Positions 3,546 through 30,862 of a stretch of DNA of 30,912 bases are shown here, piece after piece. A program made the translations under genes and the position numbers. Origin of the DNA: a virus; IMG/VR virus record IMGVR_UViG_3300029286_000178, positions 1 to 30,912 of that record. The stretch is one strand, 5' to 3'. Within the stretch, counting starts at the first letter, position 1. Each line of letters starts with the position of its first letter. Under the pieces are notes generated by a model. The model was not told where the DNA came from, ran no database searches, and worked only from the letters and a program-made list of their open reading frames with translations.

Positions 3546-4525
3546 CAATAGCCCCCGATGTTGGTAATTAGCATCGTGGCGCTGGTAGCAGTAAACGTCG
3601 GGTCAACCTCTATCCAATTCGGCACCTCTATACCATGCCCGTCCGGTTGCGTGTTGGCATCAAAGTAACTCAGATCAGCCTTAATGAAAGTGGCATTTTT
3701 GCATGGGTATTGATACTGGCAGTAAAGGCTTACCGTCTGTCCTGAATTGACCTTGACGGGGTTGGCCAGATTGTAAATTATTTGGTCTGGCTGAAGTTCC
3801 GCTTCTGGCGTGAAGTCGCAGGTTATTTCATTGAAAACATTTAACAGATTGAACGTGGACTCGATGTGAGTATTAGTGTTGTCGATGGTTAAAGTTGAGT
3901 CCGTGATAGCAGGCCTATAATTGGCGTCCTGCCAAACAAAATTCCCTTGCCCGTCAACAAAACACCTTGCACCATATTCCAGCATCTCTAATTGATTTAA
4001 CGCTTCCATGGCTGACGTTGCGCTTACCGATGCCCACGGGAAGTTATAGGCTCCTGTGTCAATCAGCCGGTTGTCCTCAGGCCAGCCAGCGTCGTCAAGG
4101 ATGTCATTAACTATTTTCCCTGAGGAGATGTTGTCCTGAAGGGCTACATTGGCCATTCCTCGGCTTAGAGCGTCCATGCCGTCAACCAAGTAGACGTAGC
4201 AGTCTTGAGCATCAAGTCTGGGATTCGGTCTAAGCTCGTTGATAAATCCGGTGAATAGATAGACAGTCCCCGATAAACCTTCATACAAGACCTGCACCTT
4301 TTTCCTGGGCAAGATTTTGCCGTAGATCGGAGATGCCTGGTTGTCGGGTGAGTATTTGCCTGTCTCATTCCGTACTACAAATTCACACGTCCCTGCTTGA
4401 GTGCGGCCTAACTCAGCGTCCCTTCCCCGGGTGAAATTCAGATTCTTAACATCGGCGGATATGTCGTCAAACTCGCCCGTATAGTTCCCGTCATCATCCC
4501 AGTCAACAAATACCGATATGGTCAT
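3545..4525 (-). CDS. Tail hub / distal tail protein, apparently C-terminally shortened
   Basis: This 326-aa product lies directly after the tape measure, where siphophages encode the distal tail or hub protein. It begins with VFVDWDDDGNYTGEFDDISADV, typical of hub proteins of Gram-positive-type siphophages, then LGRTQAGTCEFVVRNETGKYSPDN and KVQVLYEG..YLFTGFI, which are beta-sandwich hub-domain features. It ends at TATSATMLITNIGGY. In related hub proteins the chain normally continues with a xYVTKLxIxGxPL segment; here that segment begins the shared C-terminal module of the two downstream genes. Its start overlaps the tape-measure stop by 4 bases (ATGA type). Role: ring at the tail end linking tube to tip. 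Confidence 0.75.
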   Translation of the reverse strand: MTISVFVDWDDDGNYTGEFDDISADVKNLNFTRGRDAELGRTQAGTCEFVVRNETGKYSPDNQASPIYGKILPRKKVQVLYEGLSGTVYLFTGFINELRPNPRLDAQDCYVYLVDGMDALSRGMANVALQDNISSGKIVNDILDDAGWPEDNRLIDTGAYNFPWASVSATSAMEALNQLEMLEYGARCFVDGQGNFVWQDANYRPAITDSTLTIDNTNTHIESTFNLLNVFNEITCDFTPEAELQPDQIIYNLANPVKVNSGQTVSLYCQYQYPCKNATFIKADLSYFDANTQPDGHGIEVPNWIEVDPTFTATSATMLITNIGGY

Positions 4526-6111
4526 ACTAAGCGCCCGTAAGTCCTGGTATTGTTTTCGTTCCTCATGACCTCCTGGATCATGCGAGCGAAGTTTCGCGCG
4601 TCCTCCCTCGAACCCATGAAGGCCCCGGCTGAGATATTTACAGTGTAATTTCCTCCCTGGGGCGATATATTATTCAACCGGTCCAGCGGGATTACTGCTT
4701 CCGGGCCGGCCTCGCCGATTATGCCCAGGGTAGGCTGGTTGAAAATGCCACCTGCAGCGTGAAAACCTGCTGTCGCCCTAACAGAGACAGAAGAGCCACC
4801 GCTGAATAGGCTGTTCCATGAGTTCCTGATGTCATTGCAGAACTGCTGTATCTGCGCCCAGGCGTCCCTGAAAGGCCTGGTCAGCCAATCCCCCACTGCT
4901 ACGAAAGCGTTCTTGATACCATTAACGATGCCGCTGAAAAAGGCCACGACGTTATTCCAGGCGTTCACGATCCCGTCTCGGGCCTGCATGAAAGCCAAGC
5001 GTGCCTCGTTGATGGCTATATTCAGATTGTTGCGGATAATGTCAGCGACTATGCCGAACAGTTGCCCTAACCTGTCCCACTCGGTCACCAGGGCATAGAT
5101 GAAAAATCCCACGCCAGCCAGGGCGGCGGCGAAAGCCCCTATGGTCACCAGGGCTGTGCCGCCGAATACACCGGCTATCAAAGGGCCGAGTCCAGGCAGA
5201 AACGTGCCCAGCCAAGTAAAAGCCTTGATCAGAGGCATCAGCGCCCAGCCTAGGCCCGCAATAATGCCGCGTGCTCCGGCCAGGGCCGCAATGCCAATCG
5301 CGATCTGGCCGATGGCATTGACCACCTCCGGATTCTCTTTGGCCCACTTATTCAGGCCTACCAGCGCCTCGGTAAGGCTGGTAATGAACTCTGCCCCCTG
5401 CTTGCCGGTGGCAGCTCCTGTTAATGTGTTGAGCAGCTGTCCCCAGGCTGCCTCTAAGTCCTCAATGGCACGCTGGGCTGCCTTGGCCTTTTCGAGATCG
5501 GCATCGCTCATCCCGCCGCCGAGCTTATCGAAGGCATCGGACAATTTGGTGACACCCTCGATGAACATGGGCAGCATGGTAGTGCCATTCTTACCGAAGA
5601 TAGTGACCGCGATATCTGTGCGGGTGGCTTCATCCTTCACTTTGCCCAACGCGTCAGCGATGGCCTTGAACTGCTCGCCGACGCTCATTTTGCTCAGGTC
5701 TTCCCAGGACAACCCCAGCTGCCTGAAGGCATCCTGGGCTGCTTTGCCGCCAGTCCTGGCGTCGACCAGCGTCCTCTGCATCTTCTTCACCGAGATATCC
5801 AGCCCCGACATATCGCTGCCGGTGAGCTTGGCCGCGTAGCCCAGCTGCTGGACCTCCTTGGTGGTTAGTCCTGTCTTGTCGGCCAGGTTGGCTATGTCCT
5901 CGCCCTGCTGGGCCCAGGATTTGAAGGCAGTCACCACAGGAACCATGATTGCAGCAGCCAAGGCCGTAGACTGAAGGGCAGTTGCCTTGAGGTCGGCCTG
6001 GATATTGCCGAACGACCTCTTGAACTGTCGCTCAGCATCACCGAGTTTTTTATTAAAGTCCGTAATGTTGGCACGTATCACGAAAACGAGACTTTTCTCT
6101 GCGTCACTCAT
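4522..6111 (-). CDS. Tail tape measure protein
   Basis: This is a 529-aa protein that sets tail length and is ejected with DNA. The N-terminus (FVIRANITDFNKKLGDAERQFK) and the segment LADKTGLTTKEVQQLGYAAKLTG match TP901-type tape measure proteins. The middle, residues about 260-350, is strongly hydrophobic with alternating Gly/Ala/Leu stretches, as expected for membrane-inserting parts. The C-terminus contains GGIFNQPTLGIIGEAGPEAVIPL, the hallmark end motif of this family. By the usual ratio of about 1.5 angstrom per residue the tail would be about 80 nm long. It overlaps the end of the GT frameshift frame by 8 bases, the standard arrangement. Confidence 0.93.
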   Translation of the reverse strand: MSDAEKSLVFVIRANITDFNKKLGDAERQFKRSFGNIQADLKATALQSTALAAAIMVPVVTAFKSWAQQGEDIANLADKTGLTTKEVQQLGYAAKLTGSDMSGLDISVKKMQRTLVDARTGGKAAQDAFRQLGLSWEDLSKMSVGEQFKAIADALGKVKDEATRTDIAVTIFGKNGTTMLPMFIEGVTKLSDAFDKLGGGMSDADLEKAKAAQRAIEDLEAAWGQLLNTLTGAATGKQGAEFITSLTEALVGLNKWAKENPEVVNAIGQIAIGIAALAGARGIIAGLGWALMPLIKAFTWLGTFLPGLGPLIAGVFGGTALVTIGAFAAALAGVGFFIYALVTEWDRLGQLFGIVADIIRNNLNIAINEARLAFMQARDGIVNAWNNVVAFFSGIVNGIKNAFVAVGDWLTRPFRDAWAQIQQFCNDIRNSWNSLFSGGSSVSVRATAGFHAAGGIFNQPTLGIIGEAGPEAVIPLDRLNNISPQGGNYTVNISAGAFMGSREDARNFARMIQEVMRNENNTRTYGRLV

Positions 6112-13078: not shown

Positions 13079-14308
13079 AACGCGTGTAGATTTGCCTTGA
13101 GAAGTCTGCAATAGCTGCAGAGCCGGCACCATGTTCATGGGATTCAAATAAATATCGCCTTCCTCACCGGGCAGCGGATTCTGATTCTCAAGCTCCCTGA
13201 TATCATTGGCCGACAGCCAGCCCCACTGACGTCCGGTAGCATAGGCCTGGTAGCGTGCCTGTATATTGCCCCTCAGAAGTCCATCGACCAGGAATTCAGC
13301 AAAATATTCTGCCCTCTCATCAGGGTTGAGCAGCTTCTGGTTGATCGACTGCTCCCAGCGGACCAGCCAGGGACGCATGGTATAGACCACGAATTCCAGC
13401 GCCTGCTCCTCAATGTTGGAGAAGGTGGCTCGGTCAAGGTCTCCGATCATGTGGGGTGGTATGTGAAAGAACGATGCTATCTCGTTGCGCTGAAACTTGC
13501 GGGTCTCCAGGAACTGAGCATCGTCCGGCGGTATGCCGATCTTGCTCCACTTCATTCCCTCTTCCAGGATGGCCAGCCGGTGCTGGTTGGATAGGCCGGA
13601 GTGCATCTCGTTCCATGATTTACGCAGGTTTTCCTGTGCCTCCTTGGAGAGCTTGGCCGGGTGCTCAAGAACACCACCCGGAGCCGCGCCGTTGCCGAAG
13701 AACCTGGCGCCGAATTCCTCCGTGGCCAGCGATAATCCAATGGCTTCACGCGCCAGTGTGATGGGAGGATAGCCGACCAGCCCGTCAAAGCCCAGCCCAG
13801 GGATATGCCAGACACGGTATGCCGGCAGTGTCACCATCCCTGCACTGTTGGGTAAGTAATATTTGTAAATAATCTGGTCGTTCTCCCGCCAGACCTGCAT
13901 CCTGTCGGGGCGCAGTGGCCAGAGCGCCTTAACCTTTGTGTAGTTGTCCCATTCAATCTCGGCATAGGCGTTGCCCCAGGTAACCAGATGCGCCATTAAG
14001 GTCTCGCGGAAGGTAAAGCTGTTCATTTCGGGATTCGGTATGTCGTGCAGTATTTGATAGAGAGGATGCTCAATGGCTCTTTGTTTGCCCCGTTCCAGCC
14101 TCTTGTACAGATGCAGCGGCAGTGATGCCAGCGTTTCAGATAAGATGCGCACGCAGGCGTAAACCGTTACAACCGAGAGCGCTGTGGTTTCGGTAACGCT
14201 GGCGCCGGTGTTGCTCCTGCGCCAGTACAGGTTAAGCGGGTCATCCACCCTGTTTAAGGATCCGGCGGCTGATTTACCGAGCAGCTTCTTTAAAAACGGT
14301 ATCTTCAT
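13073..14308 (-). CDS. Portal protein (HK97 family)
   Basis: This 411-aa protein forms the dodecameric DNA entry channel. Features: VVTVYACVRILSETLASLPLHLYKR near the N-terminus, HPLYQILHDIPNPEMNSFTFRE, then WGNAYAEIEWD, EEFGARFFGNGAAPGGVLEHP, and FQRNEIASFFHIPPHMIGDL with ATFSNIEEQALEFV. All are hallmark portal segments. The start overlaps the large terminase stop (ATGA). Its 3' end meets the convergent cargo gene with a 6-base overlap. Confidence 0.95.
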   Translation of the reverse strand: MKIPFLKKLLGKSAAGSLNRVDDPLNLYWRRSNTGASVTETTALSVVTVYACVRILSETLASLPLHLYKRLERGKQRAIEHPLYQILHDIPNPEMNSFTFRETLMAHLVTWGNAYAEIEWDNYTKVKALWPLRPDRMQVWRENDQIIYKYYLPNSAGMVTLPAYRVWHIPGLGFDGLVGYPPITLAREAIGLSLATEEFGARFFGNGAAPGGVLEHPAKLSKEAQENLRKSWNEMHSGLSNQHRLAILEEGMKWSKIGIPPDDAQFLETRKFQRNEIASFFHIPPHMIGDLDRATFSNIEEQALEFVVYTMRPWLVRWEQSINQKLLNPDERAEYFAEFLVDGLLRGNIQARYQAYATGRQWGWLSANDIRELENQNPLPGEEGDIYLNPMNMVPALQLLQTSQGKSTRVS

Positions 14309-15858
14309 ATAACTGTCAGTCCCTGCGTTTCATACATCGACGTCTCGATCAGGTTGCTGTGCCGGCTGGCCCGGTCGATGGACATGATCAAGGCCACCAT
14401 GCCGTCTATCTTCTGAGTCGATTTCTCCTTGTCGGGCTTAAGGTTACCAGCGGGATCCATGCGCACGACCAGGTTGTCGCAGTTCCACCTGAGCACAGGA
14501 TGCCCGCCGTGCCTGATCTTCTTGCTCAATACCAGGTTCATTAGTTCCTTGGTAGGGGCGCTCATGGAAGCGAAGCCCTGGCCGAAGGGGACCATCAAGA
14601 AGCCATCGTCGGTTAAATCCTGGCTAAGCTTGGTCGCTCCCCATCGGTCGAAGGCGATCTCGGCGATGTCATATTTCTCTCTAAGCTCATGCAGCGTGTG
14701 GCGGATGTACTGGTAATCGATAACGTTGCCTGGCGTGAGGTTTATAAGGCCTTCCTTGGACCAGACCCGGTAGGGCACACGGTCCCGTTTCTCCTTGTCC
14801 ACAGCGGTGTCGCCGGGTATCCAGAAGTGCATCAACACGTCAAGGGTGCCGTCATTATCGATAAAAACCAATGCCAGGGCGGTGAGGTCGGTGGTGGCGG
14901 ACAGGTCCAGCCCGGCGTAACAGGTGCGGCCGTTGAGTTTCTCAACGTCGACCGCGCCGCTGCAGGCGTCCCAGGCGTCCATGGGCAGCCACCTTTCCAC
15001 GGAGTTCACCCACTGATTGAGATACAGCCGCCTGAAAGCCATCTCCAGGGCAGGTGTCTCCTGGGCCTTGTTACAGAGGGTGCGCATCTCATCGATGTTG
15101 CGGAAGGTGCCCAGCGCCGGATTACATGATGCCCAGACTCTCTCGTCCTTCCAGCCCGCGTCCTCGGGAGCGGAAAATATAACAGGAAGGAAGGTAGGAT
15201 CTTCAATGATGCCGTTCTGCACCTTCAAGGCGTAATTATGCTGCTCCCAGCAGATTGAGTTGCGGTCATATCCCGCCGTGGTGATCACCAGTGTCAACGG
15301 CTGGCGCCGTGAGCCGGTCGAGGTCGTCAGGGTGTCCCATAGATCGCGGTCGGGCGCAGCGTGCAATTCATCATAAATAATGCCGTGAGCGTTGATGCCC
15401 CACTTGGTGAAGGCCTCGGCCGAGATGGCGCTGTAGAAGGAGTTGTACCTGCGATAGACGATGCGCTTCTGGCTGTCCACGATCTTGGAGATGTTAAACA
15501 GGTTGGGCTCCTGGCGTACCATGGCTGCTGCCTCATTGAAAACCAGTGCTGCCTGCGGCCTATCGTTGGCGGCGCTATATATCTCGCAGCCGGCCTCGCT
15601 GTCGGCATAAAGCAAGTAGAGCGCGATAGCAGAGGCGACAGTCGTCTTGCCGTTCTTGCGCGGCAATTCCACGTAACAGGTGCGGTACTGGCGGGTACCG
15701 TCTGGATTCAGGGTGCCGAACAAGGGCCGGATGATCTTCTCGCGCTGCCAGTCCTGCAGGATGAAGTTCTGCCCGGCCCATTGTCCCTTTGTGTGCCTGA
15801 GCCTCTGAATGAATTCGACAGCCCGCTTGGCTCGCGCTTCACTGAAGTTTCGTTTCAT
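14305..15858 (-). CDS. Large terminase subunit (ATPase/nuclease)
   Basis: This 517-aa protein powers DNA packaging and cuts the concatemer. ATPase: a Walker A variant PRKNGKT (66-72) and Walker B GIIYDE (159-164), followed by the coupling segment VITTAGYD. The nuclease domain begins at about residue 310, with YAGLDLSATTD supplying the first metal-binding Asp (318) and IAEIAFDRWG another acidic site. These are features of the Terminase_1 family found with HK97-type heads. It overlaps the small subunit by 4 bases and the portal by 4 bases. Confidence 0.95.
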   Translation of the reverse strand: MKRNFSEARAKRAVEFIQRLRHTKGQWAGQNFILQDWQREKIIRPLFGTLNPDGTRQYRTCYVELPRKNGKTTVASAIALYLLYADSEAGCEIYSAANDRPQAALVFNEAAAMVRQEPNLFNISKIVDSQKRIVYRRYNSFYSAISAEAFTKWGINAHGIIYDELHAAPDRDLWDTLTTSTGSRRQPLTLVITTAGYDRNSICWEQHNYALKVQNGIIEDPTFLPVIFSAPEDAGWKDERVWASCNPALGTFRNIDEMRTLCNKAQETPALEMAFRRLYLNQWVNSVERWLPMDAWDACSGAVDVEKLNGRTCYAGLDLSATTDLTALALVFIDNDGTLDVLMHFWIPGDTAVDKEKRDRVPYRVWSKEGLINLTPGNVIDYQYIRHTLHELREKYDIAEIAFDRWGATKLSQDLTDDGFLMVPFGQGFASMSAPTKELMNLVLSKKIRHGGHPVLRWNCDNLVVRMDPAGNLKPDKEKSTQKIDGMVALIMSIDRASRHSNLIETSMYETQGLTVI

Positions 15859-16334
15859 TGCGCCTTCGTGGTTTCACTGCAGAAATCGAGCAGTTTATTC
15901 CAACCATCGTCCTCACCTGGCCTGGCCATGTTAATCCTGCCGCGGCTGGCGGGCGTCATGCCGAACTCGACCAGGAACTTATGACACTGTTCCATGGCCC
16001 TGTTGGCCACCCACAGCATGGGTGAGATGATCACGTTGCCGTTCTGCGTCTTGTACAGCTCGCCCTTCTCGTTAAGTACAGCCTCAGCCTTCTTCCACCT
16101 GGCATAGGCCTGACAGTAGAAGGCCAGCTCGGTGCGGTCGATCTTGGATAGCAAGCCCATCTCCTCCAGCTGAGGCACGATGCGCTTCCACTCCGTCTTA
16201 GCGGCCGGGCTAAGATGGTCCGGACACGTAGGACGGCCGGGATGAGGTCTTGGTTCGCGCCTGTTTATTCTATTTTTGTTCTTCTCGCCCTCAAGAATCT
16301 TGACCTTGGTGGGGCGAGGCTTACGTCCTTTCAA
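15855..16334 (-). CDS. Small terminase subunit (P27 family)
   Basis: This is a 159-aa protein. MKGRKPRPTKVKILEGEKNKNRINRREPRP is a standard P27 N-terminus, followed by CPDHLSPAAKTEWKRIVPQLEEMGLLSKIDRTELAFYCQAYARWKKAE. It recognises the packaging site and hands DNA to the large subunit. The start is a TTG at 16334, supported by AAAGGA about 8 bases upstream; no ATG fits. It is the first gene of the late operon and divergent from the 16427-16840 gene. Confidence 0.9.
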   Translation of the reverse strand: MKGRKPRPTKVKILEGEKNKNRINRREPRPHPGRPTCPDHLSPAAKTEWKRIVPQLEEMGLLSKIDRTELAFYCQAYARWKKAEAVLNEKGELYKTQNGNVIISPMLWVANRAMEQCHKFLVEFGMTPASRGRINMARPGEDDGWNKLLDFCSETTKAQ

Positions 16335-16426
16335 GAGTTTTTCCTTTCAATTTACTGAGCAAAGCTATTGACTTCCTCAGCGCCCAGAGTGATGAATGTG
16401 AGTAACTTAAAAGTAGGAGGTATTAA

Positions 16427-16840
16427 ATGGCAATTAGCAATCGCGAGATCAAGTCTGGGATGGTGCTGACCGGCAAGTACCACAAGGTCGAGTACACCTG
16501 CGAGGTAGTCGAAAAGGATGGCAAGCTCGTCTACCGCGTCATGGGAGAGGATTACAAGAGCATCTCCGCCGCCGGCAGCTCGGTTACAGGACATCCCTGC
16601 AACGGCTGGGTGTTCTGGAGTGAGTCGACGCCCAAGGCCGAAGAGGTTTCACAGCCGGTGCAGACAGATGCCACAGAAAATGAAGCAATCGTGGACAAGA
16701 AGAGCGTCTGCCGCAGGAATCCAAATCAGAAGGGTGTGCCGCAGGGTCAGGTCCGCTGGCACTGCTACGCCTGCCGCAAGAGCTTCTTGCTTCCTTCGAC
16801 TCAGGTGCCCGCTGGATGCCCTGGGCATCCGATCAGCTAA
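16427..16840 (+). CDS. RAMA-like domain protein with C-terminal zinc-binding tail
   Basis: This 137-aa protein has a strong GTAGGAGG 7 bases before the ATG. Residues about 5-66 (GMVLTGKYHKVEYTCEVVE, YRVMGEDYKSISAAGSSVTG, CNGWVFW) fit the RAMA/DUF4357-like pattern of a strand-rich domain with the S-x-S-A-A-G and NGW-x-FW signatures. Such domains are usually fused to methyltransferases and restriction proteins and are predicted to bind modified DNA. Residues 95-134 have Cys95, Cys113, Cys116, Cys131 and flanking His (WHCYACRKSF), a possible zinc ribbon. It is oriented opposite to the late operon and the adjacent methyltransferase, and has its own terminator. The function is inferred from the domain only. 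Confidence 0.7.
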   Translation: MAISNREIKSGMVLTGKYHKVEYTCEVVEKDGKLVYRVMGEDYKSISAAGSSVTGHPCNGWVFWSESTPKAEEVSQPVQTDATENEAIVDKKSVCRRNPNQKGVPQGQVRWHCYACRKSFLLPSTQVPAGCPGHPIS

Positions 16841-16863
16841 CTCTGACAACCGAACAACAACGT

Positions 16864-16898
16864 GGCAGGCTCTCGCTCTGGGAGCCTGCCATGCTTTT
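16864..16898 (+). terminator. Intrinsic terminator after the RAMA-like gene
   Basis: GGCAGGCTC at 16864-16872 pairs with GAGCCTGCC at 16882-16890 (9 bp, extendable by one pair) and is followed by atgcTTTT. It lies 24 bases after the stop codon of the plus-strand gene and would end its transcript. The stem can also form in minus-strand RNA, where no T tract follows. Confidence 0.7.
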
Positions 16899-17003
16899 CG
16901 TTGCGTAGGACCTAAAAGCATTCAAAAATATCTTGAAAATTATGGCTTAAACCACTTGGCTTTCACTGCTTTGTACGCTAATCTATGAGTATAGGAAACG
17001 GCA

Positions 17004-17174
17004 ATGAAACGGATTGAAACGATATACAAATTTAGCGAACTGGCAAATGCTCTTAGCTTCACTGAACGCTGCATCAAGATAATGATGATCGTCCTGGGTG
17101 ACGATGAGAAGTTCTGGGTTGTAACGCCCGCTCACGCCACTCGCTTGATGAAACAAGGGTACGAGTTAGCTTAA
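17004..17174 (+). CDS. Small ORF, 56 aa, unknown
   Basis: An ATG with AGGAAA about 6 bases upstream opens a 56-codon frame: MKRIETIYKFSELANALSF, then TERCIKIMMIVLGDDEKFWV and PAHATRLMKQGYELA. Predicted fold is short helix, helix, strand, helix; it could be a small DNA-binding or regulatory peptide. Its stop overlaps the convergent methyltransferase stop by 4 bases. It sits behind the terminator at 16864-16898, so it would need its own promoter; none is convincing. Confidence 0.5.
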   Translation: MKRIETIYKFSELANALSFTERCIKIMMIVLGDDEKFWVVTPAHATRLMKQGYELA

Positions 17175-18379
17175 GGCTCTATCTTTGAAGCCTGCTTGCC
17201 CGTGAAGTTCTGCCAACGGTTAATGATCACGTCGCAGTACTTGGGGTCGAGCTCCATGCCGCAGAACCTGCGCCCCATCTTCTCACAGGCTACGAGCGTC
17301 GACCCCGAGCCGGTAAATAAGTCCAGTACAAGATCATTCAGTTGGCTGCTATTCTTAATGGCCCGCTCTGCCAGTCCCACAGGCTTCTCGGTGCTGTGCA
17401 CCATCTTGGTGTTGTGTACCTTGTCGACCTGCCATAGGTCGGTCTCGGAATGCCCGCCGAACCAGCGGTGCGCCTTGCCCTCCTTCCAGCCGTAGAGTAT
17501 CTGCTCGTGCTGGCGGTTATAGTCGGTGTTGAACTTGCCCAGCACAAACTGGTTCTTGGCCCAGACGATCAATTGTCTGAACTCGCATTTATTCTGCTTC
17601 AGGTTTCTCTCAAACTCTCCGAAGGAGTTCCATCCGGAGCACATATAATAGGCATGCCCTTCCTTCAAGACGGCAGATATATTGGCGATGAACTTGCTGC
17701 AGAACTCGGTCCACTCAGCCGGGCCCAGGTTGTCATTGAGGATGCCATTAAACCTTTCGCCGTGCATCTTGCCGCGGTATTCCCAGTTCACGTTATAGGG
17801 CGGATCCGTAAAGACAAGATCGATCTTCTCGCCTGCGGTCAACCGCTCGATATCGCTAATTGAGGTTGAATCACCGCACAATAGCCGGTGCACGCCCAGT
17901 TGCCAGAGATCGCCGGGCTTGCAGACAGATTCCACATCCTCCGGTATCTCATCGTCATCGGTCAGTCCTTCCTCCGGCACGTGGAACTGCGTCATCAGGC
18001 CTTCGATCTCGTCTTCATCGAAGCCTGTAACGGTCAGGTCAAATTGACCGTCGTCCAGCTCCTGCAGCAGGTCTTTGAGTAACGGCAGATCCCAGTCGGT
18101 TAAGTCCTGGGTCTTGTTATCTGCGATCAGATAGGCATCAGCCTTGGCGCCCTCCAGGTCAAGGTAGATGGCGGGTATATCGGTGATGCCGGCCTTCTCC
18201 GCCGCCTTTAACCTGGCATGCCCGGCCAGGACGATGCCGTCTTTGGAAACCAGCACCGGGTTGGTCCAGCCGAACTCCTGGATTGATCTGGTCAGTTTGG
18301 CGATGGCGCTGTCCGGGTGCTGGCGCGGGTTCTTTTCATGCGGTTTTAGTTCAGTAATTTTGACGGTTTTTAGCTTCAT
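17171..18379 (-). CDS. ParB-like domain fused to DNA methyltransferase
   Basis: This is a 402-aa protein. Residues 1-about 95 are a ParB/sulfiredoxin-like domain (LKPHEKNPRQHPDSAIAKL, VSKDGIVLAGHARLKAAEKAG, LIADNKT). Residues about 155-400 are an adenine-N6 or cytosine-N4 methyltransferase of beta-type motif order: catalytic TDPPYN (191-196) precedes the SAM-binding DLFTGSGST (353-361), and KPVGLAERAI lies between. This fusion is very common in phages and mobile elements, usually without a cognate nuclease, and may protect phage DNA or influence packaging or gene expression. Target sequence unknown. No clear SD precedes the ATG. It may be co-transcribed with the HNH gene 128 bases upstream. 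Confidence 0.88.
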   Translation of the reverse strand: MKLKTVKITELKPHEKNPRQHPDSAIAKLTRSIQEFGWTNPVLVSKDGIVLAGHARLKAAEKAGITDIPAIYLDLEGAKADAYLIADNKTQDLTDWDLPLLKDLLQELDDGQFDLTVTGFDEDEIEGLMTQFHVPEEGLTDDDEIPEDVESVCKPGDLWQLGVHRLLCGDSTSISDIERLTAGEKIDLVFTDPPYNVNWEYRGKMHGERFNGILNDNLGPAEWTEFCSKFIANISAVLKEGHAYYMCSGWNSFGEFERNLKQNKCEFRQLIVWAKNQFVLGKFNTDYNRQHEQILYGWKEGKAHRWFGGHSETDLWQVDKVHNTKMVHSTEKPVGLAERAIKNSSQLNDLVLDLFTGSGSTLVACEKMGRRFCGMELDPKYCDVIINRWQNFTGKQASKIEP

Positions 18380-18507
18380 TTAGGTGGTAGACCCCCCCTA
18401 GTCAATTCTGTGAATTTTCGCGTGGCGCTGGCCGTGCGGTTTAGGCGCGCTCGATCTGTAGAGATTTGGATAGGCCTATCCTATTGAGGACTGCTCTGAT
18501 TGACTGT

Positions 18508-18858
18508 TTAGCCCTGGCTGCCGGTCTTCTGGTCATGATGAAACTTACATAGCGGCTGCCAGTTGGCTTCATCCCAGAACAGGTCTTGGTTGCCCTTATG
18601 AGGAATGATGTGGTCGACGATAGTAGCTGCAGTTACCTGGCCGTTGGACTGGCACACTGCACACAGAGGATGTTGAGTTAAGAAACGTCTGCGTGCCTTC
18701 TGCCAGCGGTAGGTGTAGCCGCGTTCATTACTTGTATCGCGATTGAGATCCTGCTGTTTGCGATAGTCTCGCTGATGTTGGTCACAATAGCCTGAGCGCT
18801 TATAGGTTAGATTGGGGCAACCAGATCGGCTGCATGGCTTCTTGGGTTTATGCGGCAT
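18508..18858 (-). CDS. HNH endonuclease, packaging-associated type
   Basis: The product is 116 aa from the ATG at 18858; an in-frame TTG lies 4 codons upstream, but MPHKPKKPCSRSGCPNL is the usual start of this family. An N-terminal zinc cluster (Cys9, Cys14, Cys25, His28) is followed by a basic linker, then LCAVCQ (66/69), the catalytic VDHIIPHKGNQDLFWDEANWQPLC, and KFHHDQKT. His83, Asn99 and His108 fit the HNH fold. Genes of this type beside terminase assist DNA cleavage during packaging in HK97-like phages. Here terminase is 2 kb downstream, separated by the methyltransferase and the plus-strand genes. Confidence 0.87.
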   Translation of the reverse strand: MPHKPKKPCSRSGCPNLTYKRSGYCDQHQRDYRKQQDLNRDTSNERGYTYRWQKARRRFLTQHPLCAVCQSNGQVTAATIVDHIIPHKGNQDLFWDEANWQPLCKFHHDQKTGSQG

Positions 18859-18946
18859 GATGTTGCACAATCATCAGGATAATTGATCTGTCAATATAGT
18901 AAAATGAATACTCAATATGCTTTCTATCAACGCCGTTGCCACACCT

Positions 18947-19441
18947 ATGAAGTATTTAGTTATTGGCTTACTGCTGATTGGCCTGTTCTTTACAGCTTGC
19001 GATCAGACCGCCGTGCTTCATAATGACAAATGGGGTTATTCGATTGAATATCCGGTTGGCTGGCAATTAGAATTAAACGCCATATCTACACCAGATATCC
19101 ACACTGACTATATATGGGCACCGAAACAATACAAAGGCTTAGTCTCAATTACTGTTTATAATAACTACGTCGGTTATTGCAGCGAGGCAGCTAATGCAGT
19201 ATTGGACCAGTGTAGGTCTGATTATCAGAACGTGGTAGTCATTCAAAATGGCAAGAATTGCATAGGCTGGGACTGGTGTTTGACGATTGATTATTATGAT
19301 CCAGGGACGGGTTCTCTCAGGGACTTCTATTACTATAAGAAAAAGGGCAATCAGCTTTATGAGGTACAGACTACGGGAATTAAGGACGATTATGATACTT
19401 TGGCGCTTGATCGTTTAGTAGCCACTTTTAAGCTACAGTGA
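18947..19441 (+). CDS. Predicted lipoprotein, cargo gene
   Basis: From the ATG at 18947 the product is 164 aa with a classic lipoprotein leader: MKYLVIGLLLIGLFFTAC, lipid-anchoring Cys18. An ATG 10 codons upstream (18917) is also in frame, but the Met-Lys plus hydrophobic stretch favours the later one; neither has a good SD. The mature part is aromatic-rich (WGYSIEYPVGWQLELN, YIWAPKQYKGLVSITVYNNY) and resembles the PsbP-like small globular lipoproteins of bacteria. It is isolated, plus-strand and AT-rich, a typical lysogenic-conversion gene. A surface role such as superinfection exclusion is possible, but only inferred from location. Confidence 0.7.
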   Translation: MKYLVIGLLLIGLFFTACDQTAVLHNDKWGYSIEYPVGWQLELNAISTPDIHTDYIWAPKQYKGLVSITVYNNYVGYCSEAANAVLDQCRSDYQNVVVIQNGKNCIGWDWCLTIDYYDPGTGSLRDFYYYKKKGNQLYEVQTTGIKDDYDTLALDRLVATFKLQ

Positions 19442-19470
19442 TTTTATCTCTGACAACACGAAAATAATCG

Positions 19471-19501
19471 GCTAAATAAAAAAGCCCGCATCTCTGCGGA
19501 C
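19471..19501 (-). terminator. Intrinsic terminator at the end of the minus-strand early/cargo block
   Basis: Minus-strand RNA forms a 7-bp stem (GUCCGCA-GAGA-UGCGGGC, one G.U) followed by TTTTTTATTTAG. It lies left of the restriction island and would stop leftward transcripts before the lipoprotein gene. The plus strand lacks a T tract here. Confidence 0.7.
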
Positions 19502-19746
19502 TATCCCAGCTTACTTCAATTATATTTGCGTTCGTTTGTATTTGTCAACTCATTGATTTCGTATCTAGCATGTCAATAGGGATTGATGCGATAGCTTGAG
19601 CATCTCAGTCTCAGTACAATTATTAGCCGACCCATTTAATCTCATCCAATTCATATGTCTTCAATAACTGTTTTGATTGCGCCTGTATAAAAATATATGT
19701 AGAATGAATATCTAACGTAATAAGTAACTATTTTGGAGGTGCGTAG
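19502..19746. other. Non-coding AT-rich stretch before the EVE gene
   Basis: Together with the terminator this makes a 305-base gene-free interval. I see no convincing ORF. A TTGATT at about 19674 and TATGTA 17 bases later could be a weak plus-strand promoter for the EVE gene. No strong repeats. Confidence 0.4.
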
Positions 19747-20148
19747 ATGTCGGACTGGCTGGCTATTGGTCCTAAAGAAAATTGGGAATTGGGTATAAAA
19801 AGGGGTATATGGGGTTCCACTGAAAGGTATTACAATGCATGGGATAAGGTTAAAAAGGATGATCTTGTTTTTTTCTACGTAACGAAGCCCATAAAGGCAA
19901 TCGTTGGATACGGAGCAGTGAAAACAAAAACTAGAGCAACAAAGCCCTTTTGGCAACAAGAAATAAAAGACGGTGAAGTACTTTGGCCGTTGCAGTTGAA
20001 ATTCGATGTTGTAAAACTAATACCTCTCAATCAATGGGAATACAAGGGCATACCTTTGCCACCATTATCAGAAGGAATCGTCAGACAGAGCGCATTTCAA
20101 ATGTTAAAGGATAAAACAGCGAAAGGAATAATTAAGAAATTTAAGTGA
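19747..20148 (+). CDS. EVE-domain protein (PUA-like, predicted modified-base reader)
   Basis: This is a 133-aa single-domain protein. MSDWLAIGPKENWELGIKRGIWG, then KVKKDDLVFFYVTKPIKAIVGYGAV and EVLWPLQLKFDVVKLIP are EVE-domain signatures: the N-terminal W-x-x-x strand, the DLVFFYV strand and the aromatic WP-x-x-x-x-F segment. EVE domains belong to the PUA superfamily and are predicted to flip out and read modified bases; they are often found with restriction proteins. Excellent SD (TGGAGGT, 7 bases). It is on the plus strand, convergent with the nuclease-like gene, at the left edge of the restriction island. Confidence 0.78.
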   Translation: MSDWLAIGPKENWELGIKRGIWGSTERYYNAWDKVKKDDLVFFYVTKPIKAIVGYGAVKTKTRATKPFWQQEIKDGEVLWPLQLKFDVVKLIPLNQWEYKGIPLPPLSEGIVRQSAFQMLKDKTAKGIIKKFK

Positions 20149-20213
20149 TTTCCTCGATTATCTGATTCTATTTAGTTTTAAGAAGAGCATTTTGATATAA
20201 ATGCCAAATATCA

Positions 20214-20711
20214 TTATTTGATTTGGTACTTTTCAATATTCGTGACTTCGTTTAGAAGCGCATTTATTGGTACCAAACGACCTACTGTGGTGTAGAAACC
20301 ATTGCCAATTGGAGTATGAGTTTCTCTTTCCTTAAAACGATTAATATTTGATAAAAACCATTTTCGGCTTTCAATCATCGGAATACAGTATAAAACCTTT
20401 ATCCGAGTAAAATAATAATAAAGTAAATCTGCTTGTGAATAAATGAAGCATCCCGGCGTGCCCTTTTCCTTATTGCTAAGGGTCTCAAAAAAGAAATTCC
20501 CCGTATTATCCCATCGATCGCCCTTCACTTCTATTGTCAATGTTTTATCATGAGTAATCCAAATTAAGTCAATGTCTTTACCTTGATATTCTGGGTCGTT
20601 TTCCACATTAATTACGTTGAGTGTCTCGCTATTCTTACGAAGATAACACTCGATATCAGCAGATGCTTTTTTAGCTACGATCAATGAATCATTCATTGTA
20701 TATTGACGCAA
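20214..20711 (-). CDS. PD-(D/E)XK-like nuclease candidate
   Basis: This protein has 165 aa from a TTG at 20711, or 160 aa from the ATG at 20696; the SD evidence is ambiguous. The motif set DIDLIWIT...LTIEVKGDRW gives the Asp and E-x-K typical of PD-(D/E)XK nucleases (Asp46 or Asp48 and Glu60, Lys62), and a preceding helix (KKASADIECYLRKNSETL) fits the fold. The rest is aromatic (YYYFTRIKVLYCI). It sits 14 bases after the upstream unknown gene, suggesting an operon. It might be a phage endonuclease, repair factor or defence nuclease. Family not recognised beyond fold-level motifs. Confidence 0.62.
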   Translation of the reverse strand: MRQYTMNDSLIVAKKASADIECYLRKNSETLNVINVENDPEYQGKDIDLIWITHDKTLTIEVKGDRWDNTGNFFFETLSNKEKGTPGCFIYSQADLLYYYFTRIKVLYCIPMIESRKWFLSNINRFKERETHTPIGNGFYTTVGRLVPINALLNEVTNIEKYQIK

Positions 20712-20725
20712 TATTCACCCCAACC

Positions 20726-21250
20726 TTACTGCAAAGCTACATTTACGCCGTTCATAAACATGGCGCGTCCTGAGTAATTCCAATCTCTTATATCTTGTTC
20801 AATTAGAAACCATTTAATCACCTTCAGAATCAGCTCAACTGAATAGCCAGCTTGGAAAGATAAACTTTCATAATTAGCAAGTATTTGTTCAGTATCTTCA
20901 CAATCATGGACACCTTGGATCGCGTTCCTTAATCTCAGGGCTAGTCCTGCGTTTTCTCGTTTTTTACTACTTAGATCGTCAAAAATATCTTTATGTTTAG
21001 GATATTCTCCCCCAGTCTGAAATGTCATTCTTTCAATATTAATTAGAAAGTCAAACCCCTTTTTTAAGTAGGCCGGCCGGGTTAAATAAATTTTTCTGCC
21101 GTCAGCTAAAGTCTCAACATTGTATCGGTACTTGGACGCTCGCTCTCCTCCTCCCAATCCGGGTTCTTCTTCCATAAATTTTCGAATGACAAGATCTCGT
21201 AATTCTCTTCTCGAATAATGTCCCCGTATTAAAAATTCTATGGTTTCCAC
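20726..21250 (-). CDS. Unknown protein in restriction island
   Basis: This is a 174-aa protein starting at GTG 21250 with GGGAGGT 7 bases upstream. It is soluble and mixed alpha/beta. Notable segments: FLIRGHYSRRELRDLVIRKF, RYNVETLADGRKIYLTRPA, KKGFDFLINIERMTF, and a helical C-terminus ending GRAMFMNGVNVALQ. I do not recognise the family. Coupled position between a nuclease-like gene and a Cys-rich gene in an AT-rich cargo block suggests a joint function, possibly a specificity or regulatory partner. Confidence 0.65.
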   Translation of the reverse strand: METIEFLIRGHYSRRELRDLVIRKFMEEEPGLGGGERASKYRYNVETLADGRKIYLTRPAYLKKGFDFLINIERMTFQTGGEYPKHKDIFDDLSSKKRENAGLALRLRNAIQGVHDCEDTEQILANYESLSFQAGYSVELILKVIKWFLIEQDIRDWNYSGRAMFMNGVNVALQ

Positions 21251-21318
21251 AACCTTGACCTCCCATTATTTAATTAGCGACTATATACAATTATTGACCT
21301 AATTGTAATGTACCCCTT

Positions 21319-21612
21319 TTATCTGCAAAATAATATAGGGTTTCCCGCTTTACCCGAACGGCAAACTGGACACCATGATTGTATAAACACTGTTCCGTCT
21401 TCATGGTGACGTATGCCAAAACTATCAGTTAGAAAATAAGCGTGCACTCCATGCTTTTTTGAGCAATTGGGGCAGCTTTTATATCTATTATCACGAATAT
21501 AAACAGACTTAGCTAAATCTTCACCACATATTGGACAATTATCCACAGTAACCCTCCTACCGTTAAATATTACCTTTGATCGCTGTTTGGAATTGGGCCA
21601 TATTAAAACCAT
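21319..21612 (-). CDS. Small Cys-rich (zinc-ribbon) protein
   Basis: This is a 97-aa protein with CPICG, CPNCSKKHG and WCPVC motifs plus a terminal Cys, three CxxC pairs in all. Two pairs would make a standard rubredoxin-type zinc ribbon. The strand DNRYKSCPNC and the FIQSWCPVC segment look like treble or zinc-ribbon knuckles. No SD is obvious. It lies between the unknown 174-aa gene and the restriction endonuclease. It may bind nucleic acid or protein; function unknown. Confidence 0.6.
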   Translation of the reverse strand: MVLIWPNSKQRSKVIFNGRRVTVDNCPICGEDLAKSVYIRDNRYKSCPNCSKKHGVHAYFLTDSFGIRHHEDGTVFIQSWCPVCRSGKAGNPILFCR

Positions 21613-21766
21613 GGATCAGTTTGTTGTTTCCCTTTTGACTTCTTATCTATTGTTCAGCACCTTGTTTATAACCACCCCATGACCAAATAGAACTAACTAA
21701 GCTGAAAATGCAATAATAGCCAATAAATGATACGTGGTATCAGAGTAAGTGAATGCCAATACTAGA

Positions 21767-22675
21767 TTAGAATATTATCTTCTCTAATATTCCTTTTTTC
21801 AACATCCAGGTATTGATTACATATGGAATATTCTCAATACCAATCCTAAACGGATTTTGCATATGCTTCCAGCCGTCTCCATCTGTTAACCATACAAAAT
21901 CCCAGTTCGCTGCTTTTAAAACCTGTGCCCTATTAATATATGAGTTTACTATTTCACTGGGTTTTGAACCTGTACCACTATAGAAATTGACCTCAATATT
22001 TATGTTCTTCGATTGATGTAAAAGAACAGTATCGAATTTTTTGTCCCTCAATGAATCTGGTGTAGCAATGTTATATATATCTTTAATATATTGAAATTTT
22101 TTTTGTTCAACACATTTAATATCCGGATGTTCTTTTACTAACTTCTGCAATATTTCAGATATTACAGACTCAAGAAATTGACCGCTACGATTTTTCCTTG
22201 CATTACTATCCAAGCCAACTTCGATGCCCAACATATAATCAGTAGCCGATTCCATTTCAGTTAACTGATTTAGAAGGCTTGTCTTTTGTGTAAATTCAAC
22301 GATCTGGTTGATATCTGCTGAAGAATGTTGTCCTTTTTCAAAATTAAATATTTTATAATTTATATCAGGTTCCAGCGAATCAAGTGTCTTTATTATCCCA
22401 TCCCGAACAGCTAACAATATAGGGATTACTTTTACAACTTCCGGATATTTCGTTAATAAGTCTCTCAGTGCTTGTACAGGGTCAGTGCTATTTCTTAAAC
22501 TTCCAAGTAAAGCTAATTCATACTTAATTGCATCACGGTTCTCAATTACTTTATTCCAATTAACGAAGAATTCATAAGTATGATTGGTCTCAATTGCAGT
22601 CTCACATAACAGGTTTAATAGCTCATCAACTGAATGAATATTAAAGTGCTCCTCATAAAATGGTAAATTTGCCAT
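21767..22675 (-). CDS. Type II restriction endonuclease, MboI/DpnII family
   Basis: This is a 302-aa protein. The family hallmark EVGLDSNARKNRSGQFLE is at residues 152-169. The catalytic region KKFDTVL...INIEVNFYSGTGSK (Asp215, Glu228) matches the DpnII/MboI type, where EVNFY replaces the common E-x-K. Members usually cleave GATC; that specificity is inferred here. It lies 28 bases downstream of its methyltransferase in the same direction, so modification is translated first. AT-rich relative to the phage backbone. It would confer restriction on the lysogen against other phages. Confidence 0.85.
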   Translation of the reverse strand: MANLPFYEEHFNIHSVDELLNLLCETAIETNHTYEFFVNWNKVIENRDAIKYELALLGSLRNSTDPVQALRDLLTKYPEVVKVIPILLAVRDGIIKTLDSLEPDINYKIFNFEKGQHSSADINQIVEFTQKTSLLNQLTEMESATDYMLGIEVGLDSNARKNRSGQFLESVISEILQKLVKEHPDIKCVEQKKFQYIKDIYNIATPDSLRDKKFDTVLLHQSKNINIEVNFYSGTGSKPSEIVNSYINRAQVLKAANWDFVWLTDGDGWKHMQNPFRIGIENIPYVINTWMLKKGILEKIIF

Positions 22676-22703
22676 TTGATTTGATACCTTTTTCTGAAAA
22701 GGG

Positions 22704-23555
22704 TTAGTCTATTCTCAATCGTCCGGACGTTTTGTTTTCTTCTTCAGCTAAACGTATCTTAGATAATTCCAAGAATTCAGGTTCATTGTCTATCCCGATA
22801 AATTTTCGATGATGTCGAATTGCCGCAATACCAGTCGTCGACGAACCTGTAAAAGGATCTAAGATAATGTCGTTTTTATCGGTTGAAGCCAACACTATTC
22901 GCTCAAGCAAAGCGATAGGTTTTTGGGTAGGATGTTTTCCATGCAACTTCTCTTCTGGCGCAGGGGTAGTTAAAGACCAGATGTCGGGCACTTTTTCAAC
23001 TTCTTTTATATCTATCCAAAACGATCGCATTTGCTTTCCGTTATTCAATTGCTTCATATGTTCATAATTGAATTTGTGTTTACTCTTAGCGGTCTTAGAA
23101 GCCCAAATCACCGTTTCGTGGCTATGAGTAAAATATCTACATGACAAATTGGGTGCCGCATTTGGTTTAAACCAGGTTATTTCATTCAGTAACTTGTATC
23201 CAAGTTGTTGCAAAGCGTAACCGATAGAATATATGCTGTGCATTGTTCCTGATACCCATATGGTACCATCACTTTTTAGAACACGCTTACATGCCGAAAG
23301 CCATTTGACTGCAAATTCATGATCAATATCCAGCCCATTGGATTTATCCCAATTACCCTTATTCACTGAGACCATATGACCCGCATGACATGTAATGCCT
23401 CCGTTTGATAAATTATATGGAGGATCTGCGAAAATCATATCTATAGAATCTGCTGACAAACTCGATAATATTTCTACACAATCACCTTGATAAAGCGTGA
23501 TATTGTCTGTCCGATAAAATGGTGTATAGGTTTGAATCTCTACCTTGCTGCTCAT
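22704..23555 (-). CDS. DNA adenine methyltransferase, beta class (MboI/DpnII-system type)
   Basis: This is a 283-aa protein. Catalytic DPPYNL at 44-49, then NGGITCHAGHMVSVNKGNWD, which matches the second (beta-class) methyltransferase of MboI/DpnII systems. The SAM-binding DPFTGSST is at 233-240, and KHPTQKP at 207-213. Expected to methylate adenine in GATC and protect the host and prophage from the partner nuclease. The SD GGAG lies 9 bases before the ATG. No Dam-like alpha-class methyltransferase, which often accompanies this type, occurs in the window. Confidence 0.88.
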   Translation of the reverse strand: MSSKVEIQTYTPFYRTDNITLYQGDCVEILSSLSADSIDMIFADPPYNLSNGGITCHAGHMVSVNKGNWDKSNGLDIDHEFAVKWLSACKRVLKSDGTIWVSGTMHSIYSIGYALQQLGYKLLNEITWFKPNAAPNLSCRYFTHSHETVIWASKTAKSKHKFNYEHMKQLNNGKQMRSFWIDIKEVEKVPDIWSLTTPAPEEKLHGKHPTQKPIALLERIVLASTDKNDIILDPFTGSSTTGIAAIRHHRKFIGIDNEPEFLELSKIRLAEEENKTSGRLRID

Positions 23556-23597
23556 ATGGTTTACTCCAACTTAACAAACAATCAACTGCTATCCGCT

Positions 23598-23603
23598 ATT
23601 ATA
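23598..23603 (-). promoter_or_regulatory. Candidate -10 (TATAAT) for the restriction-modification genes
   Basis: A perfect minus-strand TATAAT lies 43 bases before the methyltransferase ATG in the 162-base AT-rich gap 23556-23717. No good -35 lies 16-18 bases upstream, so the call is weak. A 5-bp inverted repeat GCCAA-ttat-TTGGC lies further upstream. The gap otherwise holds nothing recognisable. Confidence 0.35.
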
Positions 23604-23717
23604 AACTATTTAAACCAACTTTATAAGGTAACATTTATACTCGAAAGAAAGCCAATTATTTGGCGTACAGTAATTACTCACACAAAGGACGTATTTTCGT
23701 GACCCCTATTTGTATTT

Positions 23718-29277: not shown

Positions 29278-29301
29278 CCTTATTTGCACAAAGAAGCTAA
29301 C

Positions 29302-30843
29302 ATGTCCAATGAGATGGAGAACAAACGCTGCTGCATCTACGCCCGTGTGTCCACGGAGGAGCAAGCCGAACGCGATCTCTCCATCCCATTTCAGTTAGAA
29401 AGATGCCGCTATCACGCGCAGGGCAAGGGCTGGCGGGTGGTCAAGGAGTTTGTGGACGCCGGTGAGAGCGCCAGGACGGACAAGCGCCACGACTTCCAAA
29501 GGATGATCTCTGCGGCACGTAACAAAGAGTTCGACATCATATTAGTTCACAAGTTCGACCGCTTCGCCCGTAACGACTACGACTTCGTGGTCTATGAGAA
29601 GGAGCTGGAAGACCTTAAAATAGTCATCGAGAGCCTGAGCGAGCCTGGGGATGCTTCGACTCCCGCCGGCTATATCAGCCGCAGGATGATGCAGATCATC
29701 AGCTCCTGGTACTCCAAGAATCTTGCTGTTGAGGTCAAGAAGGGCATGCAGAAGAAGGTTGAGAACGGCGGCTGGCCCAAACCGGTCACCCTCGGCTATA
29801 AGAACGTTTCGGATAAAACATCATCATGGATTGAGGTCGACCCAGTCAGCGGTCCGATCATTACCGAAGCCTTCAGGGAGATGGCCACGGGCAAGTGGAC
29901 CCTGCAGGACTGGACCGAGCATGCCTATTCATCAGGCGCCCGCAGCAGGCGTGGAACCATGATCCCCAAGACGGTGTGGAGCAAGATCTTCCACAACCGC
30001 TTTTACCTGGGCGAGACCTGGCTTAAACTGGGAGATACTCCAATCAAGGGCAAGCATCCTCCTTTAGTTGACGAGTACACCTTCTACAAGGTGCAGGATG
30101 TGCTGCAGGAGCACGATAAGTACAGACAGCGCAGTCATCGGCATAAGTACCTTTTAAGAGGGCTGCTGTTCTCCAACGATGCCAATAGCTCCTGCTGGGC
30201 CGAGACGCACCTGCAAAAACAGAAAAGCTATTACAGAAGCAGAAATAAAAAGAACGGAAAGGATATCTATTACAACACCAAACAGGTTGAGGAGCAGCTG
30301 CCGGAGATGTTCAAGAAGATCACGATCTCCAGTGAGGCTGCCAAACAGCTGAAGCGCGATCTGGTGCAGTGGTTCAACAATGAAAACGACTCCAGCGGTG
30401 AGCTCAAGAAGACTGAGACTCGCCTATTTAAATTAGAGAAGATGGAGAAGAATCTGCAGCAGCTTATGATAGAGGACCAGATCTCCATGAGCGACTTCAA
30501 GGAGCACAGGAATCGCATTGATTCGGAGAGGGCCAAGTTAAAGAACTCTGTAGAAGTGATCAGTCAGCGTCAGCATTTAATCAAGGCCGACTTTGAGATA
30601 GCCCTGCAGATGGCCACCGAGCTTGATTACCTCTTCGATAAAGCTAACGAAGATGAGAGGCGACTGCTCTGTGAGACGGTGATTAAGCGGTTAAACATCG
30701 AGAAAGGGACGATCGTTAACATGGAACTCAATGCGCCGTTCGCGCTAATAGCATCCAGGGCTAACGGTTCGGGAGCTGTCAAGAATGGTGGGCCATTGTG
30801 GATTCGAACCACAGACCCCAGTCTTATCAGGACTGTGCTCTAA
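29302..30843 (+). CDS. Large serine recombinase (integrase)
   Basis: The product is 513 aa from the ATG at 29302; a TTG 6 codons upstream is also possible. The resolvase domain is at the N-terminus: ARVSTEEQ with nucleophile Ser17, LVHKFDRFARND with the conserved Arg pair, then a long recombinase domain (VTLGYKNVSDKTSSWIEVDP, IFHNRFYLGETWLKLGDTP). The zinc-ribbon segment is degenerate (LLRGLLFSNDANSSCWAE). A coiled coil follows (LKKTETRLFKLEKMEKNLQQ). The last about 19 codons are encoded by the antisense of the tRNA gene (PLWIRTTDPSLIRTVL), so the protein end depends on the attachment site. Function: site-specific integration and excision. Confidence 0.9.
   Translation: MSNEMENKRCCIYARVSTEEQAERDLSIPFQLERCRYHAQGKGWRVVKEFVDAGESARTDKRHDFQRMISAARNKEFDIILVHKFDRFARNDYDFVVYEKELEDLKIVIESLSEPGDASTPAGYISRRMMQIISSWYSKNLAVEVKKGMQKKVENGGWPKPVTLGYKNVSDKTSSWIEVDPVSGPIITEAFREMATGKWTLQDWTEHAYSSGARSRRGTMIPKTVWSKIFHNRFYLGETWLKLGDTPIKGKHPPLVDEYTFYKVQDVLQEHDKYRQRSHRHKYLLRGLLFSNDANSSCWAETHLQKQKSYYRSRNKKNGKDIYYNTKQVEEQLPEMFKKITISSEAAKQLKRDLVQWFNNENDSSGELKKTETRLFKLEKMEKNLQQLMIEDQISMSDFKEHRNRIDSERAKLKNSVEVISQRQHLIKADFEIALQMATELDYLFDKANEDERRLLCETVIKRLNIEKGTIVNMELNAPFALIASRANGSGAVKNGGPLWIRTTDPSLIRTVL
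30786..30843. other. Probable right attachment region (attR) in tRNA 3' part
   Basis: The recombinase reading frame runs into the 3' half of the tRNA gene. Prophages in tRNA genes carry a copy of the tRNA 3' part at the other end, which is beyond the left window edge. The exact crossover dinucleotide cannot be fixed here. Confidence 0.5.
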
Positions 30844-30862
30844 CCAACTGAGCTAATGGCCC
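30786..30862 (-). tRNA. tRNA-Ile (GAT)
   Basis: The minus strand folds into a complete cloverleaf: acceptor GGGCCAT/ATGGCCC, D stem GCTC/GAGC, anticodon stem CAGTC/GACTG with loop CTGATAA (anticodon GAT), T stem TGTGG/CCACA with loop TTCGAAT. Discriminator A and an encoded CCA end. It is intact although the recombinase gene overlaps its antisense. Confidence 0.95.

Follow-up and report, generated by a model that had tools for sequence, protein, structure and literature searches.

What does a small, free-standing RAMA-like protein do beside a phage DNA methyltransferase? The question is raised by a stretch of prophage DNA of 30,912 nucleotides (IMG/VR record IMGVR_UViG_3300029286_000178, positions 1 to 30,912), hereafter called the window, in which a stand-alone RAMA-like gene lies near that of a ParB-methyltransferase (ParB-MTase):

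16415..16420, plus strand: Shine-Dalgarno sequence AGGAGG of the RAMA gene, read from the sequence, 6 nt before the ATG at 16427
16427..16840, plus strand: stand-alone RAMA-like protein, 137 amino acids (aa); RAMA domain at residues ~1-68, low-confidence linker at 69-91, then a Cys/His tail
17171..18379, minus strand: ParB-MTase, 402 aa, with ParB_N and N6_N4_Mtase domains

A sequence-only reading of the window had proposed that this protein and a stand-alone EVE protein (19747-20148, plus strand) are two readers of modified DNA forming one network. The coordinates and strands of both open reading frames (ORFs) were confirmed, as were the Cys/His tail, the good Shine-Dalgarno sequences (AGGAGG and GGAGGT, each 6 nt before its ATG), the ParB-MTase lying between the two genes (17171-18379) and a second methyltransferase belonging to the adjacent DpnII restriction endonuclease. 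The interpretation itself is only partly supported: profile searches placed neither protein outside the RAMA and EVE families, but the two do not make up a joint unit. The RAMA protein is more likely an optional working partner of one kind of phage DNA methyltransferase than a free-standing sensor of methylated DNA, and it could possibly be a methylation reader serving the ParB-MTase locus.

A RAMA-like family with a variable tail

In hmmscan searches, the best single Pfam match of the window protein was DUF2924 (PF11149; E 4e-7, 30.8 bits for a cut-off of 31.2). The likeness to DUF2924 proteins is confined to the RAMA-like core and leaves the tail outside. Matches to Pfam RAMA (PF18755; 5.5e-5, 23.5 bits, well below the cut-off of 35.2) and to DUF4357 also fell short of the curated thresholds. 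By profile matching, membership of PF18755 is nevertheless clear at the family level, since each of the 15 proteins in the family alignment reaches E <= 0.01 against Pfam RAMA, the best of them 8.5e-12; the window protein alone is below the curated cut-off.

An AlphaFold model built on an 18-sequence alignment had predicted local distance difference test scores (pLDDT) of 82-86 for the RAMA core and close to 80 for the tail. The top three PDB chains re-aligned to this model (VIA-align) were MPND 7ydt (Z 5.9), CcrM 6pbd (Z 5.8) and MPND 7ydw (Z 5.7). Since these Z scores are middling and Foldseek gave no match to the model below E 0.3, we treat the fold as supportive evidence only. In PDB sequence searches, a profile of close relatives found no match; CcrM was reached by the wider family profile alone, at E 0.62, and this sequence match is therefore weak by itself.

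The tail carries the motif C-x2-C ... C-P-x(0-1)-G-H (C113, C116, C131 and H134 in the window protein) and is predicted to fold as a small beta, zinc-ribbon-like module that would bind zinc. It is retained in most divergent relatives. A C2H2-like tail is found instead in locus L098 and in most copies of genome G352, the Cys/His tail is absent from L111-L114, and L110 has a differently placed CxxC. The gene evolves under purifying selection, with a ratio of nonsynonymous to synonymous substitution rates (dN/dS) of 0.13-0.25, and a similar Shine-Dalgarno sequence precedes it in relatives. The family is one of uncultivated phages and Chloroflexota prophages; a search of GenBank phages with three of its members gave no match, and hence no cultivated host or annotation. 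In L114 (5578-6237), a Lys/Ala-rich, histone-H1-like N-terminal region precedes RAMA within one protein.

Linkage to ParB-methyltransferases

Profile-driven searches brought together RAMA genes from a range of divergent phages and prophages. The searches for related loci rely on short exact peptide patterns, and the collections are unevenly sampled. With L003 and L013 set aside, since their contigs end inside the RAMA gene, a ParB-MTase homologue lies within 5 kb of RAMA in 22 of the 24 testable copies. This holds for 16 of 17 viral contigs, or 17 of 18 with the window included. Among 400 Chloroflexota genomes surveyed by profile, the methyltransferase lay within about 1.1 kb of five of six strong stand-alone copies, namely those of G001, G292 and three of the four in G352. 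The latter genome carries the RAMA gene on four contigs (L155, L156, L157 and L158), three of them with a ParB-MTase alongside.

Counted by RAMA group, about 14/15 are linked. A binomial estimate on 13/14 groups gave p about 3e-8, with unrelated TerL (terminase large subunit) contigs (2/9) as background, and among contigs selected by TerL, RAMA was present in 7/10 with a ParB-MTase and in 0/8 without (Fisher p 0.004), though both figures are rough because near copies inflate the counts. Gene-neighbourhood statistics for the two proposed readers point to a partnership of RAMA with the ParB-MTase and not a network with the DpnII system; for EVE, no viral relative was found.

In the window lineage, RAMA and ParB-MTase genes converge; they stand in tandem in L009, L099, L100, L101, L104, L112 and L163, and diverge in L102. 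Since the orientation differs between lineages, the pair is retained while its layout changes. Furthermore, in a quick methyltransferase tree with long branches, the RAMA-linked enzymes occupy at least three or four well-supported separate places; because of this scatter, we consider that RAMA and methyltransferase came together, or were exchanged, more than once. In L110 and L114, RAMA is distant from the terminase and yet within 5 kb of a ParB-MTase. In L126, a related phage core (TerL 82%), a ParB/PAPS-reductase cassette takes the place of the methyltransferase domain, and there is no RAMA. A search of the open literature found no description of the RAMA/ParB-MTase pairing, which is no proof of absence.

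The L126 cassette (2306-5260, upstream of the gene for TerS, the terminase small subunit) encodes a ParB-only protein, a PAPS-reductase-like protein, a second ParB-like protein and a GNAT protein. It is perhaps an alternative DNA-modification cassette in the methyltransferase slot.

Organization of the locus

Around the RAMA and ParB-MTase genes, the window contains the following features:

14305..15858, minus strand: TerL
15855..16334, minus strand: TerS, divergent from RAMA; assigned by its position before TerL and its conservation in relatives
16861..16893, plus strand: intrinsic-terminator-like hairpin, a 15-bp stem then CTTTT, directly 3' of the RAMA gene
17004..17174, plus strand: 56-aa ORF between RAMA and ParB-MTase
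18508..18870, minus strand: HNH endonuclease, marking the upstream limit of the conserved block

Within each contig's reach, near relatives have portal, TerL and TerS on one strand, RAMA on the other, then ParB-MTase and HNH; since they keep the same gene order, the RAMA gene belongs to the lineage core. A gap similar in size to the region of the 56-aa ORF occurs in L001 and L008 and not in L002, L004 or L005. The hairpin directly 3' of the RAMA gene makes it look like a transcription unit of its own in the window. In the ParB-MTase, motif IV (DPPY) precedes motif I (FTGSG), which is the beta-class order, and there is no C-terminal RAMA.

With a ParB domain and a modification enzyme beside the terminase, window 14305-18379 has the composition of a ParB-Tls locus, in which DNA-modification genes stand between a ParB-like gene and the terminase, as described for Paracoccus phages (PMC6536676). 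The ParB-MTase adjoining TerS/TerL is common to both; the difference is that some lineages have a RAMA-tail gene between methyltransferase and terminase, on the opposite strand in the window lineage. No such gene is described in the passages of that paper dealing with the locus (PMC6536676).

The relatives of RAMA and of the ParB-MTase, together with a best TerL match of 60% (G352) in the sampled phylum, suggest a Chloroflexota host for the window. At 29284-30862, the window also carries a serine integrase ORF (Resolvase and Recombinase domains); the overlap of its 3' end with an opposite-strand tRNA-Ile gene (30786-30862) marks a possible attachment site.

A possible DNA clamp acting in trans

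We tentatively favour, at somewhat less than an even level of confidence, the view that the phage ParB-MTase has in the RAMA protein an accessory subunit, optional and working as a DNA clamp in trans. Its basis in our analysis is family membership, fold resemblance, linkage, repeated pairing and purifying selection; physical interaction, DNA binding and timing are steps that we infer. In CcrM, the C-terminal RAMA domain of one monomer grips the non-target strand for the other, and S315, N330 and W332 are among the phosphate-binding or conserved residues (PMC6787082; PMC10359602). Deletion of this domain or the W332A substitution inactivates the enzyme, and S315A abolishes DNA binding (PMC6787082). 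The phage RAMA family retains the corresponding serine and NGWxFW. Since these residues are kept and the beta-class ParB-MTase lacks a RAMA of its own, a separate RAMA acting in trans is mechanically plausible.

According to this model, the phage protein would supply in trans what CcrM-type beta-class adenine methyltransferases carry C-terminally. Its RAMA domain would bind the DNA backbone, and the Cys/His tail could make a second contact, to DNA or protein. The clamp would hold the non-target strand while the ParB-MTase flips and methylates the target, or would widen the range of sites; progeny DNA would probably be modified before or during packaging. It is also possible, though we hold this with more doubt, that the locus represents a split methyltransferase, in which a CcrM-type clamp has become a separate, exchangeable small subunit for several ParB-MTase clades and alters where or when phage DNA is methylated.

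The likeness to CcrM RAMA (PDB 6pbd) comprises the fold resemblance (Z 5.8), the S...NGWxxW residues and the association with a beta-class DNA methyltransferase. However, CcrM-type enzymes have methyltransferase and RAMA in one chain, whereas the phage RAMA is encoded apart, in a small gene that includes a Cys/His tail and neighbours a ParB-fused methyltransferase. The CcrM domain, moreover, has 83-88 aa and is essential; that of the phage has about 68 aa and is optional.

Several observations weigh against the clamp model. In the window, RAMA is not co-transcribed with the methyltransferase, as it has its own Shine-Dalgarno sequence and terminator and lies on the opposite strand. Within the lineage, it diverges faster than the enzyme and out of step with it (window versus L005: dN 0.005 for the methyltransferase and 0.19 for RAMA), and across pairs the two genes co-diverge weakly (r 0.27, p 0.02). 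Among 80 loci fetched with the window ParB-MTase, RAMA was found in the window lineage (4 contigs) and in one weak case; among 79 fetched with a profile of the RAMA-linked enzymes of other clades, it was found in two, one of them weak. As most ParB-MTases have no RAMA neighbour, RAMA is not needed for catalysis in general, and no fused ParB-MTase-RAMA protein was seen among the fetched methyltransferase loci. Two copies stand apart from any ParB-MTase: that of L113, whose 110-kb contig gave no N6_N4_Mtase match, and L158 of G352, whose surroundings contain no recognised phage genes. Finally, in L101 (1321-1938) a RAMA gene adjoins a ParB-MTase that has cleanly lost its whole catalytic domain in frame, leaving the ParB part, which could be biology or an assembly artefact.

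In phages without RAMA, the methyltransferase mostly stands directly before TerS/TerL, and no other small protein was obvious in the RAMA slot. Since most ParB-MTase loci run into the terminase in this way, RAMA is best described as an optional extra within a locus of known type.

Other explanations for the RAMA protein

The main rival, which we hold to be less than likely, is that RAMA reads the methylation set by the ParB-MTase and signals the state of the phage DNA to terminase packaging, gene regulation or the methyltransferase itself. Such a role would agree with RAMA depending on the methyltransferase and not vice versa, and with its position beside the terminase in many phages. RAMA domains are, indeed, widely predicted to be readers of N6-methyladenine (6mA) and are found fused to nucleases (PMC11037411); L159, L161 and L162 in Chloroflexota look like nuclease-RAMA fusions. 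The MPND domain had been reported to prefer 6mA, but in the structural study 6mA left its binding unchanged (PMC9963953; PMC11037411), and the two solved RAMA structures, MPND and CcrM, touch only the backbone, independently of sequence (PMC9963953; PMC6787082). The retention of RAMA beside the catalytically deleted enzyme of L101 and the lack of a nearby terminase in L110 and L114 also argue against a reader. MPND (PDB 7ydt, 7ydw) resembles the phage protein in fold and is known to bind double-stranded DNA without sequence dependence; it differs in being a eukaryotic deubiquitinase-family protein with no methyltransferase partner.

We regard as unlikely that the RAMA-tail protein serves DNA binding or packaging in general at the ParB-terminase locus, plays no role in methylation and is linked to the enzyme by shared neighbourhood. 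Most RAMA copies do adjoin TerS/TerL, where ParB-MTases are also common (PMC6536676), but the gene is missing from all eight TerL contigs without a methyltransferase, two lineages keep the enzyme near RAMA with no terminase nearby, and L126 has lost the methyltransferase domain and RAMA together.

An anti-restriction or defence gene, coating or sensing DNA against the restriction systems of the host or of rival phages, seems very unlikely. The lineage carries differing restriction systems in a nearby slot and RAMA is fused to restriction nucleases elsewhere; here, however, RAMA is a core gene at a fixed site outside the cargo slot, and its linkage is to the ParB-MTase rather than to the variable restriction genes.

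The EVE gene and the accessory slot

Beyond the HNH gene, the EVE gene sits in a slot of variable content:

19735..19740, plus strand: Shine-Dalgarno sequence GGAGGT of the EVE gene, 6 nt before the ATG at 19747
19747..20148, plus strand: EVE-like protein of the PUA superfamily, 133 aa; accessory cargo
20214..20711, minus strand: 165-aa ORF that converges on EVE; it has a D...E-V-K motif and weakly matches NERD/NO VEIN
21767..22675, minus strand: DpnII-type restriction endonuclease (E 2.2e-75)
22704..23555, minus strand: beta-class DNA methyltransferase of the DpnII-type system, without RAMA

The EVE protein matched Pfam EVE (PF01878) at 1.8e-4 and 21.9 bits, just below the cut-off of 23, NCBIfam PRK00809 at 6.8e-10 and the UPF0310/EVE proteins of PDB (2p5d, 9e-5; 1wmm, 3e-4). 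Relatives 33-35% identical to it exceed the Pfam cut-off, and on these profile matches it is a PF01878 member; a single-sequence model reached pLDDT 45. No relative was found in viral contigs, GenBank phages or RAMA-bearing relatives. In the 400 Chloroflexota genomes, its sole relatives are N-terminal domains of ~285-293-aa proteins, one of them beside a beta-class methyltransferase, and plasmids searched with an EVE-fusion relative gave no match. The window protein shares its EVE-type N-terminus with UPF0310/EVE proteins and with EVE-fusion modification-dependent nucleases such as VcaM4I (PMC7897488). Its relatives L144 and L145 carry an extra C-terminal domain, whereas that of the window consists of the EVE domain by itself, without a fused nuclease. 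In L144 (469-2319, Chloroflexota), the beta-class methyltransferase and the adjacent protein, possibly an EVE-nuclease, form a candidate restriction-modification pair.

The EVE gene is a separate accessory gene, probably acquired on its own. As no viral relative was found, we rejected it as part of the RAMA/ParB-MTase system, and a common operon was also discarded: RAMA and EVE bound a 3.7-kb stretch whose interior contains minus-strand genes and a terminator. A joint methylation-sensing network of RAMA and EVE with both methyltransferases, suggested by their co-presence in the window, is hardly credible, since RAMA is lineage core while EVE is cargo not found in any RAMA-bearing relative, its nearest relatives being the Chloroflexota proteins with an added C-terminal domain, one beside a methyltransferase of its own.

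The slot extends from HNH to a conserved ~130-aa gene (window 18900-23700; L004 9798-15582; L002 8350-12214). It holds the DpnII system and its methyltransferase in the window, an EcoRV-type endonuclease with a D12 methyltransferase in L004, and a large N6_Mtase with a 199-aa partner in L002, so that it seems to swap restriction systems. The motif and the weak profile matches of the 165-aa ORF suggest a putative PD-(D/E)XK-type nuclease fold; neither a solved-structure relative of this ORF nor any homology with the C-terminal domain of L144 was found. At 19548-19473 on the minus strand, a perfect sigma-70 consensus, TTGACA-18-TATAAT (12/12), is followed about 17 bases on by a terminator-like hairpin and a T run. 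This element, which had no Rfam match, is possibly a ~40-nt transcript or an attenuator.

Significance of a free-standing RAMA family

The routine labelling of RAMA as a 6mA reader comes mostly from its context. Because the free-standing RAMA family follows a single class of phage methyltransferase, it offers a small, clean system in which a reader of methylation could be told from a clamp supplied to the writer in trans. It would also extend the ParB-terminase modification locus of phages by one optional component.

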